Origin: Anaerovorax odorimutans
GTDB lineage: Bacteria > Bacillota > Clostridia > Peptostreptococcales > JAAYPU01
Assembly (NCBI GenBank): GCA_016841185.1
Contig: JAENZQ010000003.1
Location: 89,501 to 153,500, forward strand
Length of the DNA: 64,000 nt
Direction of reading: 5' to 3'
The notes under the pieces were generated by a model that saw only the letters and a program-made list of their open reading frames with translations, was not told the origin of the DNA and ran no database searches. Both the position numbers and the translations under genes were made by a program. Shown piece after piece: positions 22,966-30,935 of the stretch; the first letter of the stretch is position 1; each line of letters starts with the position of its first letter.

Positions 22966-23862
22966 ATGATTTTTGCATTGTTTTCGTATCAGGGAAGTAT
23001 AGAAACGGGCATTGTTTCTATAGACAAAACCGCTGTAACGCCTTTTAGAGTTTTATTTGCAGATCAGGGCTTTGCTGCGCCAAAAGATATAAATACACTT
23101 ATTGAAAACTATGACACTTTCTGTCCTGTTATAGAACGTCTGCTTAAAGAAAAAAATTATTCTTCAATCCCTTTAAAGGATATAAAACTAAAATCACCTA
23201 TACCTTATCCAAAGAGAAATGTCATTTGTCTGGGGAAAAACTATGCCGACCACGTAAAAGAAATTAAAGGTTTTACAGGAGGACCCTCTGATATTCCCGA
23301 TCATCCCATTTACTTCACCAAAGCTGCTTACCCCTGTATTGGACCGGAAGATACTATTTTAAGGCATAAAAATGCCACTCGAAAAATTGATTATGAAGTA
23401 GAACTCGGGGTTATAATCGGTAAAAAGGGCATCAATATTCCTGCTCATGAAGCAGAATCTTATATATTCGGATATACGGTGGGAAACGATATCTCAGCAA
23501 GAGACCTTCAAAAACAGCATGTCAACTGGTTCAAAGGAAAAAGTTTGAAAACTCATTGTTCAATAGGTCCTTGGATAGTACATAAAACCCTTATTCCGTT
23601 CCCGATATGTCTGAATATTCAAAGCCGAATAAACGGAGAACTCCGGCAGGATTCTAATACAAAGAATCTCATTTTTGATATCCCTAATATTATAAGCGAT
23701 TTGTCCAAAGGAATGGAATTAATCCCCGGCGATATTATTCTGACCGGAACACCATCAGGTGTTGGTTTGGGTTTTGATCCTCCAAAATACCTGCAGCCGG
23801 GAGATAAAATAGAATGCTCCGTAGAAAAAATCGGCACCTTAACCAATTATTTAGAAGAATAA
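22966..23862 (+). CDS. Fumarylacetoacetate hydrolase (FAH) family protein
   Basis: A 298-residue member of the FAH superfamily, whose members hydrolyse or decarboxylate beta-diketo acids and related metabolites with Mg2+ or Ca2+. Conserved features are NVICLGKNYADHVKE, the metal-binding DYEVELGVIIG (E-x-E), GYTVGNDISARDLQ, and the C-terminal PGDIILTGTPSGVG. The N-terminal ~60 residues form the family's small beta domain. It is followed after 11 bases by the MbfA-like gene with a good ribosome site, so they may be cotranscribed, but I see no functional link. The true substrate cannot be read from the sequence. Confidence 0.92.
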   Translation: MIFALFSYQGSIETGIVSIDKTAVTPFRVLFADQGFAAPKDINTLIENYDTFCPVIERLLKEKNYSSIPLKDIKLKSPIPYPKRNVICLGKNYADHVKEIKGFTGGPSDIPDHPIYFTKAAYPCIGPEDTILRHKNATRKIDYEVELGVIIGKKGINIPAHEAESYIFGYTVGNDISARDLQKQHVNWFKGKSLKTHCSIGPWIVHKTLIPFPICLNIQSRINGELRQDSNTKNLIFDIPNIISDLSKGMELIPGDIILTGTPSGVGLGFDPPKYLQPGDKIECSVEKIGTLTNYLEE

Positions 23863-23873
23863 CGGAGGCTGTT

Positions 23874-24761
23874 ATGAATACCCTGCTTTCTGAACATGAA
23901 ATAAACTGTATCAAGGCGTTCCAAAAAAATGAAATAACCGAATACCATATCTACACCAAATTGGCTGATTCCATAAAGGATGCTCATAATAAAGAACAAT
24001 TGAGAAAAATCGCCGGTGAGGAATTGAAACATTATGAAATATGGAAGAAATATACTTATTCTGACGTAAAACCTGATACAAAACTTATCAAAAAATTTTA
24101 CTGGATTTCAAAGATCCTGGGATTGACCTTTGGGGTAAAGCTTCTGGAAAAAGGCGAAAAAAACGCTCAAAAGACATATTCTGAAATAGCGGTGAAGATA
24201 CCGGAAGCCAAAAAAATTATTGAAGAAGAAACTCAACATGAGCATATGATCATCGACATGCTGGATGAAGAAAAACTTGAATATGTAGGCTCTATGGTCC
24301 TCGGACTCAATGATGCTTTGGTAGAGCTTACCGGCGCTCTGGCCGGTTTTACTTTTGCTCTTCAAAATTCGGGACTCATTGCTCTTACAGGCCTGATAAC
24401 CGGTATATCCGCTTCTTTTTCTATGGCAGCATCCGAATATCTTTCAACCAAAGCAGAAATTGAAAATCAGGAAAATGGCCATGCATTTAAATCCGCATTA
24501 TATACCGGCATTGCTTATATTTTCACAGTAGTATTCCTGGTACTGCCTTTTTTTATATTGTCCAATTATTTTTTATCCTTAGGATTGACTCTGATAATTG
24601 CCGTTTTGATTATTTTCTTATTTAATTTTTATATTTCTATAGCAAAGGGTTATCCTTTTAAGAAGCGTTTTATAGAAATGACCGCCATCAGTTTAGGCGT
24701 AGCAGCTATTTCTTTTGTAATCGGCATCCTTATCCGAAATACGATAGGAATAGAAATTTAA
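23874..24761 (+). CDS. Ferritin-like domain fused to a VIT1/CCC1 transporter (MbfA-like)
   Basis: A 295-residue fusion. Residues ~5-130 are a rubrerythrin/ferritin-like four-helix domain with di-iron ligand candidates Glu20, Glu23, Glu49/50 and His53 (GEELKHYE), and Glu117-119 with His122 (EEETQHEH). Residues ~138-295 form five membrane helices of the VIT1/CCC1 iron/manganese transporter family. In alpha-proteobacteria this architecture (MbfA) exports iron and protects against peroxide. The start ATG (23874) follows GGAGG. A role in iron or manganese export is inferred from the architecture. Confidence 0.88.
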   Translation: MNTLLSEHEINCIKAFQKNEITEYHIYTKLADSIKDAHNKEQLRKIAGEELKHYEIWKKYTYSDVKPDTKLIKKFYWISKILGLTFGVKLLEKGEKNAQKTYSEIAVKIPEAKKIIEEETQHEHMIIDMLDEEKLEYVGSMVLGLNDALVELTGALAGFTFALQNSGLIALTGLITGISASFSMAASEYLSTKAEIENQENGHAFKSALYTGIAYIFTVVFLVLPFFILSNYFLSLGLTLIIAVLIIFLFNFYISIAKGYPFKKRFIEMTAISLGVAAISFVIGILIRNTIGIEI

Positions 24762-24982: not shown

Positions 24983-25714
24983 TTATTCATTAATTCTAAC
25001 TATTTCCCCCATCACTTTACCAATAGGGGCGTTTATGACCAAATCCGCACTGTTGTCGTATTCTGTTTTTGATTTATTAATCAATACCAGATACTTTCCA
25101 GTAAAATAATTTACAAGACCTGCCGCCGGATAAACCACCAAAGAAGTCCCTCCGATAATCAATGTATCGGCATTCCGTACCGCTTTTATCGACTTATTGA
25201 TGGTTTCTTCGTCTAAAGGCTCTTCATAGAGAACCACATCCGGCTTAATGATGCCCCCGCATTCAGTACACTTTGGTACTCCTTCAATGCTCATTATATG
25301 GTTCAAGTCATAGAACTTCCCGCATTTCATACAATAGTTTTTGTGTATGGTGCCATGTAATTCATAGACTTTTTTACTTCCTGCCGCCTGATGCAGTCCA
25401 TCAATATTCTGAGTAATAACGGCCTCCATCTTTCCTTCTTTCTCAAGCAATGAAAGGGCAATATGGGCTTTATTGGGTTTCGCTTCTTTATGAATCAGAT
25501 TGTTTTTATAGTAATCATAAAACATTCCCGTATGATTCATAAAAAATGTCCTGCTCAGCATTTCTTCAGGGGAATGACTATAAGTTTGAACCGCATTGTA
25601 CAATCCCTTCTCAGATCTGAAATCTGGAATGTTGCTCTCCGTGGAAACACCGGCTCCGCCAAAAAACACAATTCTTTTGCTTTCTTCAACTATTTTTTTA
25701 AGCTCTTCATACAT
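24983..25714 (-). CDS. cobB: NAD-dependent protein deacylase (sirtuin)
   Basis: A 243-residue Sir2 enzyme that removes acetyl (or longer acyl) groups from protein lysines using NAD+. Motifs present: GAGVSTESNIPDFRS, QNIDGLHQAAG with the catalytic histidine in ELHGT, two zinc CxxC pairs (CMKCG and CTECGG), and GGTSLVVYPA. The deacetylase group U pattern fits better than the desuccinylase type because the Tyr/Arg pair of the latter is not evident. The ATG at 25712-25714 lies eight bases after GGAGG; a TTG five codons upstream overlaps that site. Confidence 0.93.
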   Translation of the reverse strand: MYEELKKIVEESKRIVFFGGAGVSTESNIPDFRSEKGLYNAVQTYSHSPEEMLSRTFFMNHTGMFYDYYKNNLIHKEAKPNKAHIALSLLEKEGKMEAVITQNIDGLHQAAGSKKVYELHGTIHKNYCMKCGKFYDLNHIMSIEGVPKCTECGGIIKPDVVLYEEPLDEETINKSIKAVRNADTLIIGGTSLVVYPAAGLVNYFTGKYLVLINKSKTEYDNSADLVINAPIGKVMGEIVRINE

Positions 25715-25787
25715 TCCTCTGTCCTCCAAATAATGTATATATTATAACACTTTTAACCTCAACTTGTAAAATTTTTGAATTTTTTAT

Positions 25788-25837
25788 GAACGTATGTTTA
25801 CAATCTTGTTTTTATGTTATAATAAGAACACATGTTC
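25788..25837 (+). promoter_or_regulatory. SOS-type promoter with two LexA boxes
   Basis: GAACGTATGTTT (25788-25799) and GAACACATGTTC (25826-25837) both fit the Gram-positive LexA consensus GAAC-RNRY-GTTY without mismatch, centred 38 bp apart. A promoter lies between and under them: TTTACA at 25797-25802 and TATAAT at 25818-25823 with a 15-base spacer. One box overlaps the -35 region and the other lies just past the -10, the arrangement expected for LexA repression of the two genes that follow. Confidence 0.85.
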
Positions 25838-25859
25838 TAATTATGTGAGGTGTTCCGAA

Positions 25860-27095
25860 ATGAATCATTCTCTTGAAAAATTACGAATTTTGGCTGATGC
25901 TGCCAAATACGATGTATCCTGTGCCTCCAGCGGCCTCGAAAGAAAAAATATCAAAGGCCTTGGTAATTCAAGAAGCTTCGGCATTTGCCACTCGTGGGCA
26001 TCTGACGGTCGATGCATCTCATTGCTTAAGATTCTTTTGTCAAATAAATGTGCCTACAATTGTATCTACTGTGTCAACCGATGCAGTGCAGATACTCAAA
26101 GAGCCAGCTTTGAGCCGGAAGAAATAGCTGAAATCACCACTGAATTTTACAGAAGAAATTATATCGAAGGTCTTTTTTTAAGCTCTGCAGTAGAAAAAAG
26201 CCCGGACAACACCATGGAAAAAATGGTTAAGACACTGGAAATACTCAGAAATTCCTATGGTTTTAACGGTTATATCCATGCAAAGATTATCCCGGGTACA
26301 AATGCGTCCCTTATTGATAAAATTGGGTTTCTCGCAGATAGGATCAGTGTTAATATTGAACTCCCCAGTGAAAACAGTCTACAACTTCTGGCACCTCAGA
26401 AAAAGCTGAAAGCTATTTTGACGCCTATGTTACATATTAATGAGAAAATACAGGAAAACCGGGATATGAGAAAACATTTCAGAAATGTTGAAAAGTTTTC
26501 AGGTGCCGGTCAATCTACCCAGATGATAATTGGTGCTTCAAATGAAAATGATTATCTTATACTCAAATCTGCTCAGTACATGTATCAAAAGTTTCACCTG
26601 AAACGGGTTTATTATTCGGCTTATATGCCTGTAGTATCATCTTCTCTTTTGCCCGTACCCTCTGCTCCCCCGCCTCTTAAGCGGGAGAACCGTCTGTATC
26701 AGGCAGACTGGCTGTTGAGGTATTACTTTTTTAAAGCAGATGAATTGATTGACGCCTCTTCTCCTTTTCTGGATCTGGATTTTGACCCCAAGATGTCCTG
26801 GGCTTTGAGAAACATGCACTTGTTTCCTATGGAAATTAACAGAGCTTCCTATGAAGAACTCCTGCGAATCCCCGGTATTGGCGTCCGTTCTGCCTATAAG
26901 ATTGTAACTCAAAGAAAAAATGCTGCAATTAAATTTGAACACCTGCATAAGATCGGCATTGTCGTTAAGCGGGCAAAATTTTTTATCACCTGCTGCGGAA
27001 AATACTACAACAATATACCCTTTAAACCTGAAGCCATAAGAAAATCACTCCTCCCTGAAAGAAACGACGGGGAACAGCTTAGTATGTGGACATAA
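25860..27095 (+). CDS. Putative DNA modification/repair radical SAM protein
   Basis: A 411-residue protein of the radical SAM family that always pairs with the DNA metabolism family encoded next to it (TIGR03916 with TIGR03914/03915). The [4Fe-4S]-binding motif is Cys64-x3-Cys68-x2-Cys71 (KCAYNCIYC). Further cysteines at 21, 43 and 52, and the CC pair in FITCCG near the C-terminus, could hold another cluster. Residues ~340-395 contain helix-hairpin-helix motifs (RIPGIGVRSAYKIV), typical of DNA binding. In other genomes the partner is sometimes fused to a uracil-DNA glycosylase domain, which is the basis for the DNA repair label. The reaction is unknown. Two LexA boxes precede it. Confidence 0.88.
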   Translation: MNHSLEKLRILADAAKYDVSCASSGLERKNIKGLGNSRSFGICHSWASDGRCISLLKILLSNKCAYNCIYCVNRCSADTQRASFEPEEIAEITTEFYRRNYIEGLFLSSAVEKSPDNTMEKMVKTLEILRNSYGFNGYIHAKIIPGTNASLIDKIGFLADRISVNIELPSENSLQLLAPQKKLKAILTPMLHINEKIQENRDMRKHFRNVEKFSGAGQSTQMIIGASNENDYLILKSAQYMYQKFHLKRVYYSAYMPVVSSSLLPVPSAPPPLKRENRLYQADWLLRYYFFKADELIDASSPFLDLDFDPKMSWALRNMHLFPMEINRASYEELLRIPGIGVRSAYKIVTQRKNAAIKFEHLHKIGIVVKRAKFFITCCGKYYNNIPFKPEAIRKSLLPERNDGEQLSMWT

Positions 27096-27159
27096 TGGAA
27101 ATCTCAATTGTTTAAACATAGTTTCTACCTTCAATATTCATTATAGAAAGGATGTTCTT

Positions 27160-27894
27160 ATGATAGATTATATTTATGACGGTTCCTTTGAAGGGCTTCT
27201 GACCTGTATCTATTTGCATTATTATGTAGAAAAGGCTTCAGGCATTTACGCAAAAAATGAATATCAGGCCGATTTGATTAGAGCCTGTAAAGAAATCTCC
27301 ACAAATCATACATATTTTGATAAAGTATACATGGCAATAAATAAAAAAATATCCTCTTTGGCTTTACAGAATGTTTATTATTTATATTTATCCAATGCCT
27401 CAGATAAAGAGAATATCATTTTGTCATATTTACGGATGGGATTTAAACGTGGTAAATCGGTAGATACGTATCATTCGGACCCTTTGATCCATGACGTCCA
27501 CCGCATTTCCAGAAAAGTTACGGCTGAAAGCCACCGATTCCTGGGGCTGATTCGATTTATGGATACGGGAGTTTTTTTATATGCTGTCATAGAGCCTGAT
27601 CACAATATTTTGGTTCTTTTGGGTGATCATTTTTCCAACCGCTTAAAAAATGAAAATTTCATTATTCATGATAAAAAAAGGAAGAAAGCTTTAGTTTCCT
27701 CCAAGGGAACATGGCATATAACAGATTTTAAAAGAGAAGAAGAATTCCCTTTGCAGGAAAAAGAAGTTTTTTACCGGTCTTTGTGGAAAAATTACTTTAA
27801 ACATATCGGCATAGCAGATAGAAAAAATCCGAGACTCCAGGCACAATATATGCCTCGAAGGTATTGGAAACACTTGCCCGAAATCAATGATTGA
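27160..27894 (+). CDS. Putative DNA metabolism protein, partner of the radical SAM protein
   Basis: A 244-residue protein matching the TIGR03915/DUF4130 family: an opening YIYDGSFEGLLTCIYLHYY, a middle VHRISRKVTAESHRFLGLIRF, and the C-terminal RNPRLQAQYMPRRYWKHLPE. In many bacteria this domain is fused to a uracil-DNA glycosylase-like domain (TIGR03914); here it is the short form without it. It follows the radical SAM gene after 64 bases with its own AAAGGATG ribosome site, so both should be induced with the SOS response. Its end overlaps the convergent activase gene by 11 bases. Confidence 0.87.
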   Translation: MIDYIYDGSFEGLLTCIYLHYYVEKASGIYAKNEYQADLIRACKEISTNHTYFDKVYMAINKKISSLALQNVYYLYLSNASDKENIILSYLRMGFKRGKSVDTYHSDPLIHDVHRISRKVTAESHRFLGLIRFMDTGVFLYAVIEPDHNILVLLGDHFSNRLKNENFIIHDKKRKKALVSSKGTWHITDFKREEEFPLQEKEVFYRSLWKNYFKHIGIADRKNPRLQAQYMPRRYWKHLPEIND

Positions 27895-29515
27895 GTTTTG
27901 AAAGTGCAAAAAGACACGCGCCTACTGCTCCTGTGATCTGTGGTTCTTCAGGAATAATGATATCTTCCGCCAACGCTTCTTCAAGGGCTTCTATGACGCC
28001 TCTATTCTTTGCAACACCGCCAGTCATCATGTATCCGGTCTTGCGCCCAAGTCTTTCAACCATGCCTGTTACTCTGGTTACAACAGAATGGTTCAAAGCT
28101 TTAACGATATCCGCCTTTTCTTTATTATCTGCAATGAGGGAAATGACTTCCGATTCTGCAAACACACTGCACATACTGGTGATCTCAAGGGATTCGACGG
28201 ATTTTTTATGTGCTTCTCCCATTTCTTCCATAGACATTTCAAGCGTGTTTGACATCATCTCAAGAAACCGGCCGGTTCCAGCCGCACATTTGTCGTTCAT
28301 GGTAAAATCCAATACCTCTCCATTCTCATCAATCCGGATCACTTTGCTGTCCTGCCCTCCGATATCTATTATGGTTCTGACGGAAGGATCAAAATAATAT
28401 GCCCCTTTTCCATGGCAGGAAATTTCCGTAACACATTCATCCGCAAAAGGAATCTTTGCCCGTCCATAACCTGTTGCTACAATATATGACACTTGATCAG
28501 GCGAGATATTTGATTGTAGCAGAAGCTCTTTATATGCTTTTTCAGCACTTTGAATACTTTTTGCCCCTGTGGATACGATATGATAAGCAAGAATCTCCCG
28601 TCCTTCATTCATTAAAACAATGTTTGTTGACGTAGAGCCACTGTCTATTCCGGCTACAATATTATTTTGAAATTTCTTTATGGATGGTTTCTTACTGCTT
28701 TCTTTTATAGCTTCCATAAAAGCCTCTATACGTGTCCGAAGCTGTCCTGAGCTCTGCTTCAGATAATCTGTTTCAAACTTCAATATTTTCAGATTTTCCA
28801 TTCCCTTTAATAAAGCATACCCGTAGGAATAATAATCACAGAACTTTATGGTTGGGTATAAAATTCCCCTTAAATGATTCTGCTTTACAACTTTAGATAT
28901 CTGATGCCAATACATTTCCATTCTCATGCATGGCAACTGATTTAATAAACTCTCTTCATAACTGCCGTCTTTCAAAATCCTGTTTTCTTGGGAAGAGCAA
29001 GTCAGATCCGTAAAACAAACAACTTGCTCCTTCAGTATTTCTGTTATAAATTCTGGAGTTCTGGCACCAATCAATAGTATTTCTTCATAGTTTTCAACTG
29101 CTTTTTTCCGGTAAAAATTTTTCGAGTATCCCTTAAACTGAGCCGCATCAAAAACTTTCCCGGAAAAGGCTTCATAGGCTTCAATCAATTTATCTATTTC
29201 TTCTTTATAAAAACCAATCGCTTTTTCATTGCACTTTCGGGGAAGCTCCATCATATATACAAATTGTTCCGAAAATCGGGCTTTCAGTATATCATATACT
29301 CTTCTGATACTGTCGCAGCAATTGGTGAAAATGATTTTTTCATATTTTTTTGATAAGCATACTTCCAATACGGATTTGGAATAAGCACACATATTCGGAT
29401 GAAATACCGAATCAGCAGCAGGAGTCGCATTCAATTCCGGCTCGATCTTCTCACACTTTTCCCCCATAAATTCAAAAATCTCAATGGGTGTATATTTACA
29501 GACATATCCTATCAT
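27884..29515 (-). CDS. 2-hydroxyacyl-CoA dehydratase-like domain fused to its ATP-dependent activase
   Basis: A 543-residue fusion. Residues ~1-260 look like a reduced HgdB-type dehydratase subunit, with candidate cluster ligands in MCAYSKSV, FTNCCDS and KFCDYYSYG followed by a GQLRTRIEAF helix. Residues ~280-540 are a BadF/HgdC-type ASKHA activase: GIDSGSTSTNIVL phosphate loop, DIGGQDSKVI, and the inter-subunit [4Fe-4S] cysteines in NDKCAAGTGRFLE and MCSVFAESEV. Activases use ATP to drive one electron into the dehydratase cluster. The ATG at 29513-29515 follows GAGGAG. It pairs with the next gene upstream, a separate HgdB-like subunit. Confidence 0.85.
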   Translation of the reverse strand: MIGYVCKYTPIEIFEFMGEKCEKIEPELNATPAADSVFHPNMCAYSKSVLEVCLSKKYEKIIFTNCCDSIRRVYDILKARFSEQFVYMMELPRKCNEKAIGFYKEEIDKLIEAYEAFSGKVFDAAQFKGYSKNFYRKKAVENYEEILLIGARTPEFITEILKEQVVCFTDLTCSSQENRILKDGSYEESLLNQLPCMRMEMYWHQISKVVKQNHLRGILYPTIKFCDYYSYGYALLKGMENLKILKFETDYLKQSSGQLRTRIEAFMEAIKESSKKPSIKKFQNNIVAGIDSGSTSTNIVLMNEGREILAYHIVSTGAKSIQSAEKAYKELLLQSNISPDQVSYIVATGYGRAKIPFADECVTEISCHGKGAYYFDPSVRTIIDIGGQDSKVIRIDENGEVLDFTMNDKCAAGTGRFLEMMSNTLEMSMEEMGEAHKKSVESLEITSMCSVFAESEVISLIADNKEKADIVKALNHSVVTRVTGMVERLGRKTGYMMTGGVAKNRGVIEALEEALAEDIIIPEEPQITGAVGACLFALSKLNH

Positions 29516-29663
29516 GTGATTTCTCCTCACTTGTAAAACAAAAGGTATTAATACAGTTTATAAATTATGGAGTATAGAGCATGGATTTCTCTGTCTTTTT
29601 TCATAAATAGAGATTTTGTATAGCAAAATCCACCTTCAATCTTAAATTCTTAAATTTTAACTA

Positions 29664-30935
29664 TTATATCATACGTTCTTCTTTATTTACGATTATTTCC
29701 AGAAAAGCTTCTACCCTTGTAATTAGCTGTCCTTGTTGATTTTTCCTCATATCAAGTCCGTCACCGTCAACAGGCAGAAAAGGAATATTCTTTGATTTTA
29801 GAGCTTCTCTGAGCAAATCCATACCCCCTGAATTCTGCCTGCATCCCAAATGACAAAATTGAATGACACCATATACTTTAAGTATATCCGCAAGATTCAG
29901 TATCTTTTCTATTTTTCTTTCATAGGATCCATTATAGATGTTATCAATTATTTTTTCCGAAAGTGCCATTAAAGGATCTTCCGCTTCATCAAGATGAATC
30001 GTATCAGGATGGTTTAACTCCATAGTGATAATTTCAAACTGCCCTTTTTCGCCGAACAAACCCCTGAAAGGCCGGAAAGGGAAAGGCATGGTATGGACCC
30101 AGAGAATTCTTCTCTTTTTTCTTTCATAGCTGTTTTTTACTTCATTATACACATTTTTGTAAAAATGAAAGGATTCCGGTGTTCCCATATAAACATGCGC
30201 TGTATTCAGCATATACATTTCCTGGGTCATGGTCTTTGAATAGCTCTTCCAACTTAACAAAGGAAGAGTCCGATGGATATAATCCAATGTTTTGTTTTCA
30301 GTGTGAATAATTTTTTTCAATTTATGAATATCAAACTTCTGTCCCTTTACTTCCTCTATGGCTTTGATCATATCCAAAAGCTGATGATAAACATATCTTA
30401 CAGATGCTTCATTCTTTTCATGAGGAATATCCAATAAAAAATATGGGATGTCCCATTTGTGACTGAGATAAGCAAATGTGCTGTTATTGGCATCGCAAAT
30501 AGTAGAAGTTGCTGTCGAAAAAACAGGGCGTGGAACAATTCCTCCTTCTACGGCACCGATAAAAGCTTTATGGTAGCTGCATAATGTATCTGAAAGCCCA
30601 CTGTTATCAGCTTTATCCAAATAAATATTTTGAAGCTGAAATCCCGCCAGAAAAGAGGCATAGTATTCTATGCAGATTGGATTGAGATCAAAGGCATGAA
30701 TCACTTCACAGGGTACGAACAAATTGACCCATACAGATGATTCAGGCCTTTCGATAGTTCTTTTAATAATATTTAAAGAAATCTCGTTCAGATACTTCAA
30801 CGCATATTTATCTCGAGAAAAATGCTTTACCCTGAATATTTCATAGTTCAACCCCATCTGCATCAGCCTGAGTATTCTGTCCGGGTTATGAATATTCTGT
30901 TTCAGCATTTTATAATATACATTCTTTACACTCAT
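29664..30935 (-). CDS. 2-hydroxyacyl-CoA dehydratase subunit-like iron-sulfur protein (HgdB/DCCP type)
   Basis: A 423-residue protein of the 2-hydroxyacyl-CoA dehydratase D-component/BcrC family. The three cysteine motifs of the fold are present: CSYHKAFIG, STICDANNSTF and QFCHLGCRQNSGG. The C-terminal VDGDGLDMRKNQQGQLITRVEAF matches the corresponding region of the activase fusion downstream, so the two may form a heterodimer sharing related folds. Known relatives include acyl-CoA dehydratases, benzoyl-CoA reductases and double-cubane cluster proteins. No CoA-transferase, transporter or other pathway gene is nearby, so the substrate is open. Confidence 0.83.
   Translation of the reverse strand: MSVKNVYYKMLKQNIHNPDRILRLMQMGLNYEIFRVKHFSRDKYALKYLNEISLNIIKRTIERPESSVWVNLFVPCEVIHAFDLNPICIEYYASFLAGFQLQNIYLDKADNSGLSDTLCSYHKAFIGAVEGGIVPRPVFSTATSTICDANNSTFAYLSHKWDIPYFLLDIPHEKNEASVRYVYHQLLDMIKAIEEVKGQKFDIHKLKKIIHTENKTLDYIHRTLPLLSWKSYSKTMTQEMYMLNTAHVYMGTPESFHFYKNVYNEVKNSYERKKRRILWVHTMPFPFRPFRGLFGEKGQFEIITMELNHPDTIHLDEAEDPLMALSEKIIDNIYNGSYERKIEKILNLADILKVYGVIQFCHLGCRQNSGGMDLLREALKSKNIPFLPVDGDGLDMRKNQQGQLITRVEAFLEIIVNKEERMI

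Follow-up and report, generated by a model that had tools for sequence, protein, structure and literature searches.

SOS control of the gene for the TIGR03916 radical-SAM protein is real and conserved across distantly related bacteria. In a 64,000-nt stretch of Anaerovorax odorimutans DNA, hereafter the window, this gene (gene A) is followed by a gene of the TIGR03915/DUF4130 family (gene B), and judging from the operator sequences it is well supported that the pair belongs to the LexA regulon and is regulated by LexA. We consider it probable that protein A is made upon SOS induction, is recruited by the sliding clamp and, as a radical-SAM enzyme, processes damaged DNA together with its DUF4130 partner. 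Computational support is strong for the LexA boxes, for their conservation, for the radical-SAM and helix-hairpin-helix (HHH) domains, for the operon and for the clamp motif; binding to the clamp, the presence of a second cluster, the lesion, the chemistry and the part played by B are what we infer. The clamp-type motif and three additional invariant cysteines in A are new relative to the sequence-only reading of this DNA that we followed up. The features of the locus are collected in Table 1.

Table 1. Features of the gene A/B locus (window coordinates)
Feature	Position	Strand	Basis or remark
LexA box 1, GAACGTATGTTT	25788..25799	+	Overlaps the -35; box type as at lexA, recA, dinB and uvrB
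-35-like TTTACA	25797..25802	+	Read from sequence
Extended -10, TGTTATAAT	25815..25823	+	Read from sequence
LexA box 2, GAACACATGTTC	25826..25837	.	Over the likely transcription start
Gene A, TIGR03916, 'putative DNA modification/repair radical SAM protein', 411 aa	25860..27095	+	Profile match
Three extra cysteines C21, C43 and C52, with H44; candidate second Fe-S site	25920..26015	+	Invariance
Radical-SAM motif CX3CX2C (C64, C68, C71)	26049..26072	+	Profile match, invariant cysteines
HHH, residues 325-355	26832..26924	+	PF12836 above gathering score
Beta-clamp-type motif QLSMW, residues 406-410, in the disordered C-terminal tail of A	27075..27089	+	Tail conservation
Gene B, TIGR03915/DUF4130, 244 aa, 64 nt downstream of A	27160..27894	+	Profile match

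Two LexA boxes in the promoter of the pair

Both boxes are perfect at all defined positions of the Gram-positive LexA consensus, GAAC-RNRY-GTTY, as the sequence-only reading had claimed. Its description of the boxes as straddling the -35 and -10 regions is close enough, since box 1 overlaps the -35 and box 2, located 26 bp from box 1, begins 2 nt past the -10. The spacer between the -35-like element and the extended -10 is 15 nt long, and because it is so short the promoter of the pair is absent from the promoter scan. Gene A has the ribosome-binding site GAGGTG and an ATG start. The loose pattern GAACNNNNGTTY is not commoner in the window than expected (four occurrences vs 2.96 from shuffles), and thus a motif count alone is no proof. 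What is above chance is the presence of two boxes in one promoter, their location and their conservation.

The genome codes for one full-length LexA. The box GAACATATGTTT is found before both lexA and uvrB, and GAACATATGTTC before both recA and dinB; the operator in the promoter of the pair matches this LexA box of the genome itself. Only 12 distinct GAACRNRYGTTY sites are present in the 3.56-Mb genome, eight of them in promoters, namely those of recA, lexA, dinB, uvrB, a yneA-like gene (two sites) and the gene A/B pair (two sites). The yneA-like gene (L015:1598-1992 in G000:C18) codes for a LysM protein of 101 residues, likely an SOS cell-division inhibitor, and has three LexA boxes upstream within 70 bp.

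Conservation of the box in the same order

TIGR03916 proteins scoring above the cut-off are encoded in 62 of the 148 genomes of the same taxonomic order. A box was expected to be frequent upstream of the orthologues if the sequence-only reading was right, and it is: 46 of the 59 testable orthologues have one within 150 nt, with the RNRY core in 45 cases, as compared with 0.42% of 1,432 control tiles drawn from these loci and an average of 0.32 of 59 in shuffled upstream regions. The box is also found at all 29 placeable lexA loci (of 30) of these genomes, which indicates that the specificity of LexA is the same across them. The absence of boxes in genomes with LexA of that specificity would have spoken against SOS control, and boxes are nearly always present there.

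The absence of the box tracks the loss of full-length LexA. Among genomes that are not phylogenetically independent and include some fragmented assemblies, a box within 300 nt is present in 46 of 51 genomes with full LexA and in four of the eight without it (Fisher p = 0.014), and in an independent subset of 50 genome-contig loci, hand-picked to include box-less Firmicutes rather than sampled at random, full-length LexA accompanies 19 of 20 loci with a box vs 14 of 30 without (p = 0.0005). The four LexA-less assemblies that keep the box are fragmented. In family f9, the box occurs in two LexA-bearing genomes and in none of four LexA-less ones. Five genomes of the order (G112, G144, G028, G080 and G105) are box-less despite having LexA; the TIGR03916 copies of G080 and G105 are divergent. 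Near matches, such as GAACATATATTC and GTACATATGTTT, are seen at the promoter of several loci that lack a box.

The divergent copies of G105 and G080 (loci L083 and L084, respectively) score ~423 bits against TIGR03916, have no LexA box, are farther from gene B and harbour a degenerate tail motif, QLTIEQF. They possibly represent a separate subfamily.

Different operators in other lineages

The alpha- and betaproteobacterial orthologues carry the LexA motifs of their own classes, which backs SOS control further. The motif GAACN7GAAC lies within ~60 nt of the start in all 11 alphaproteobacterial copies examined and in none of 432 control tiles, and the three betaproteobacterial copies all have CTGTATN4ATACAG (CTGTN8ACAG). 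The Bacteroidetes LexA motif, CTAAN5TTAG (PMC8565304), precedes the gene in three Bacteroidota loci, two from Hymenobacter and one from Pontibacter. No LexA motif was found upstream of the Acinetobacter, Fusobacterium and Bacteroides finegoldii copies. These groups are, to our knowledge, without canonical LexA, and that orthologues lacking the regulator are mostly box-less also fits SOS control. Its maintenance while the operator sequence differs argues for selection on the regulation, and with at least three LexA motifs involved, this selection ties the family to DNA damage.

Protein A combines a radical-SAM core with a helix-hairpin-helix domain

Both family assignments of the sequence-only reading hold. 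Protein A matches TIGR03916 over its full length (residues 6-402) with 607 bits for a cut-off of 343.5, and protein B scores 243.9 bits against full-length TIGR03915 (cut-off 112.25) and 164.9 bits against PF13566 (cut-off 27). Radical-SAM superfamily membership of A is indicated by a PF04055 match, an invariant CX3CX2C motif and a partial TIM barrel fold. Its HHH domain has a ComEA-like match in the PDB, through which A probably contacts DNA. In some orthologues (L078, L128 and L076), long and variable stretches are inserted around residue 200, where the radical-SAM core gives way to the GQSTQ block.

In addition to C64, C68 and C71, all 60 A sequences compared share the invariant residues C21, C43, C52 and H44, and C21, C43 and C52 likely hold a second Fe-S cluster. 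The AlphaFold model of A has a pLDDT of 87.8, with low confidence in the N-terminal cysteine region. Among the 50 best matches listed for residues 1-287, the nearest fold is that of lipoyl synthase (Z 17.9; 229 residues, rmsd 3.4, 15% sequence identity), with HydE within about 1 Z of it and other radical-SAM enzymes close behind. Lipoyl synthase (LipA/LIAS) also has three cysteines upstream of CX3CX2C, and its auxiliary-cluster motif is CX4CX5C. The resemblance is thus in topology and not in spacing, as A has C21-X21-C43-X8-C52 instead of the lipoyl-synthase motif. Unlike A, LipA has neither an HHH nor a clamp tail.

A beta-clamp-type motif in the tail of protein A

After the HHH domain, the tails of A proteins diverge in length and sequence save for one short block. 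It takes the forms QLSLF, QLSIF, QLSFF, QLDLF and, in the window, QLSMW, or forms of six residues, for example QLSLPF, QLLLDF and QLSLGF, all of which we take to be recognised variants of the beta-clamp-binding motif. The strict motif occurs in 112 of 146 A tails vs 1.5 in shuffled tails (maximum 5), and in seven of 983 windows from the protein body. In the same loci, the motif is present in 118 of 153 A proteins, as compared with none of 137 B proteins and two of 391 other long ORFs. Residue Q406 is invariant in 60 diverse A proteins, and the model of A is disordered at the motif; the flexible region of A therefore harbours a QLxLF-type motif, in the window as a variant. QLSFF occurs near the C-terminus of the DinB encoded by this genome, which is SOS-controlled too. 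The tail probably docks A onto the sliding clamp of the replication machinery, as suggested by its sequence. It also persists in the copies from Acinetobacter, Fusobacterium and Bacteroides, and hence it does not simply accompany SOS control. In the open-access literature, we found no earlier report of radical-SAM proteins with a clamp motif.

The DUF4130 partner

The model of B has a pLDDT of 93.6. All its top structural matches belong to the DHH superfamily (PAP phosphatase, Z 8.7; RecJ, 8.0; Cdc45, about 7), and the best one spans 188 residues; the similarity is weak, with a Foldseek E above 0.001. B thus resembles in fold, weakly, a superfamily that comprises RecJ, Cdc45, PAP phosphatase and family II pyrophosphatase, but the metal ligands of these proteins are not conserved in B: none of the DHH metal-ligand motifs appears among the conserved columns of 55 B proteins. 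We therefore rejected an active DHH nuclease. A sequence search of solved structures with B gave chance-level matches only.

Gene B of the window codes for DUF4130 only, with no UDG domain. The alpha- and betaproteobacterial B proteins are fusions with UdgX (TIGR03915 + TIGR03914), encoded behind TIGR03916; these fusions share the operon position and the DUF4130 domain with the window protein and differ from it by the UDG domain. UdgX excises uracil and then bonds to the abasic site (PMC10359453). Taken together, the fusions and this chemistry point to damage of the uracil or abasic type as the target. The A. odorimutans genome has UDG-like genes elsewhere (G000:C68 and G000:C57:159663-159980), below the UdgX cut-off, and the C57 copy contains an internal stop. 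Genes A and B are not always adjacent, as a Hymenobacter locus (L143) has an alpha/beta-hydrolase-like gene between them.

Relation to known systems

We take COG4277 to be the TIGR03916 family. A COG1573-COG4277 operon is reported to be under SOS control in Bacteroidetes, with Verrucomicrobia and Caulobacter cited in the same work (PMC8565304; references 7 and 65 therein). SOS control is thus not wholly new, having been published for the COG4277-UDG operon of Bacteroidetes, Verrucomicrobia and Alphaproteobacteria. That 'UDG base-excision repair' operon is LexA-controlled like the window pair, which differs by its Gram-positive box and its stand-alone DUF4130 protein devoid of a UDG domain. No report of the clostridial or betaproteobacterial case was found in the open-access literature. 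The main text of the Clostridioides difficile LexA papers (PMC4234289, PMC4689574) mentions no radical-SAM target, and the LexA regulon of S. venezuelae includes a 'radical SAM protein', vnz_31145 (PMC9380542).

According to the sequence-only reading, the DNA role of the pair had been inferred only from a uracil-DNA glycosylase fusion. This is outdated, because DUF4130 had been predicted to be a mutagenesis-related enzyme by Burroughs et al. 2013 (PMC3765255), and PMC8565304 gives further grounds. The same reading took SOS regulation as evidence for an action of the pair on damaged DNA; the regulation stands, and such an action is still an inference. Neither biochemistry nor other experiments on protein A or B were found in the open-access literature.

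Spore photoproduct lyase (SplB) is a radical-SAM enzyme of DNA damage, as we propose for A, and it is SOS-regulated in several species (PMC8565304). TIGR03916 proteins are unlike SplB in having an HHH, a clamp motif and a DUF4130 partner; the absence of SplB from the 50 best structural matches listed for A does not prove that the two differ.

Proposed mechanism and alternatives

LexA bound to the two boxes would block the promoter of the pair, and upon DNA damage, RecA-driven cleavage of LexA would release it. Protein A would then be made and bind DNA via its HHH domain, and its C-terminal sliding-clamp motif would recruit it to the replication fork. There, A, in concert with B, may act on a damaged or abnormal base by means of a 5'-deoxyadenosyl radical and, probably, of a second Fe-S cluster (C21/C43/C52). 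A narrower version, which we advance tentatively, has A tethered to DnaN by its QLxLF tail, with the LipA-like two-cluster core and DUF4130 altering a damaged or uracil/abasic site through radical chemistry at the fork; if true, this would be a repair route unlike those of photolyases, spore photoproduct lyase or glycosylases. What counts against the proposed mechanism is that the clamp motif is short and located in a disordered part of the model, and that QLSMW is not the ideal QLSLF. The TIGR03916 family is found widely, in bacteria of gut, soil and water, and could reveal a radical-based handling of base damage, and a clamp-docking tail, which would put A at the replication fork, offers a simple experimental handle.

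The pair might instead be an accessory to error-prone synthesis, i.e. a factor for mutagenesis that works at the clamp alongside Pol IV/DnaE2-type polymerases rather than reversing lesions. The prediction for DUF4130 cited above and the likeness of the clamp motif to that of the SOS-controlled DinB of the genome are in line with this role. However, no polymerase gene lies beside the pair in the annotated loci inspected, and the retention of all radical-SAM cysteines and active-site residues in A implies chemistry, so that we find a mutagenesis factor unlikely. We regard it as quite unlikely that the pair, instead of repairing a lesion, modifies DNA upon damage, for instance by LipA-like sulfur insertion, with the SOS timing being that of a modification. 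Lipoyl synthases are the closest solved folds among the matches listed and share the three upstream cysteines, but the fold ranking is a near tie that gives no function, the cysteine region is modelled with low confidence, and SOS control and the UdgX fusion suit repair better.

It is very improbable that the pair serves against phages or belongs to a mobile element as an SOS-induced module. Modules of this kind are often induced by SOS and some copies of the pair are on plasmids, but no transfer or defence genes surround the window copy and the chromosomal distribution is wide; a defence module was rejected given the lack of PADLOC or PHROGs matches and of viral-contig homologues. Finally, the boxes might be chance matches or belong to another regulator, in keeping with the lack of enrichment of the loose pattern in the window. 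This is hardly credible, and we rejected it on account of the conservation at orthologues, the match to the lexA and recA boxes and the switch of motif in other classes.

Other genes near the pair

Divergent from the pair is a gene for a sirtuin (NAD-dependent deacylase; 24983-25729, minus strand), whose promoter, TTTACA-18-TATAAT (25770-25741), is ~18 nt from LexA box 1. Farther upstream, a VIT family protein of 315 residues with a rubrerythrin-like N-terminal domain (23814-24761, plus strand) possibly handles iron or manganese. On the other side, the minus strand at 27884-30935 codes for an acyl-CoA dehydratase activase, with an adjacent, unassigned ORF of 423 residues. The N-terminal extension of the activase matches 2-hydroxyacyl-CoA dehydratase/double-cubane reductase models, and the two proteins possibly form a double-cubane-type reductase system.
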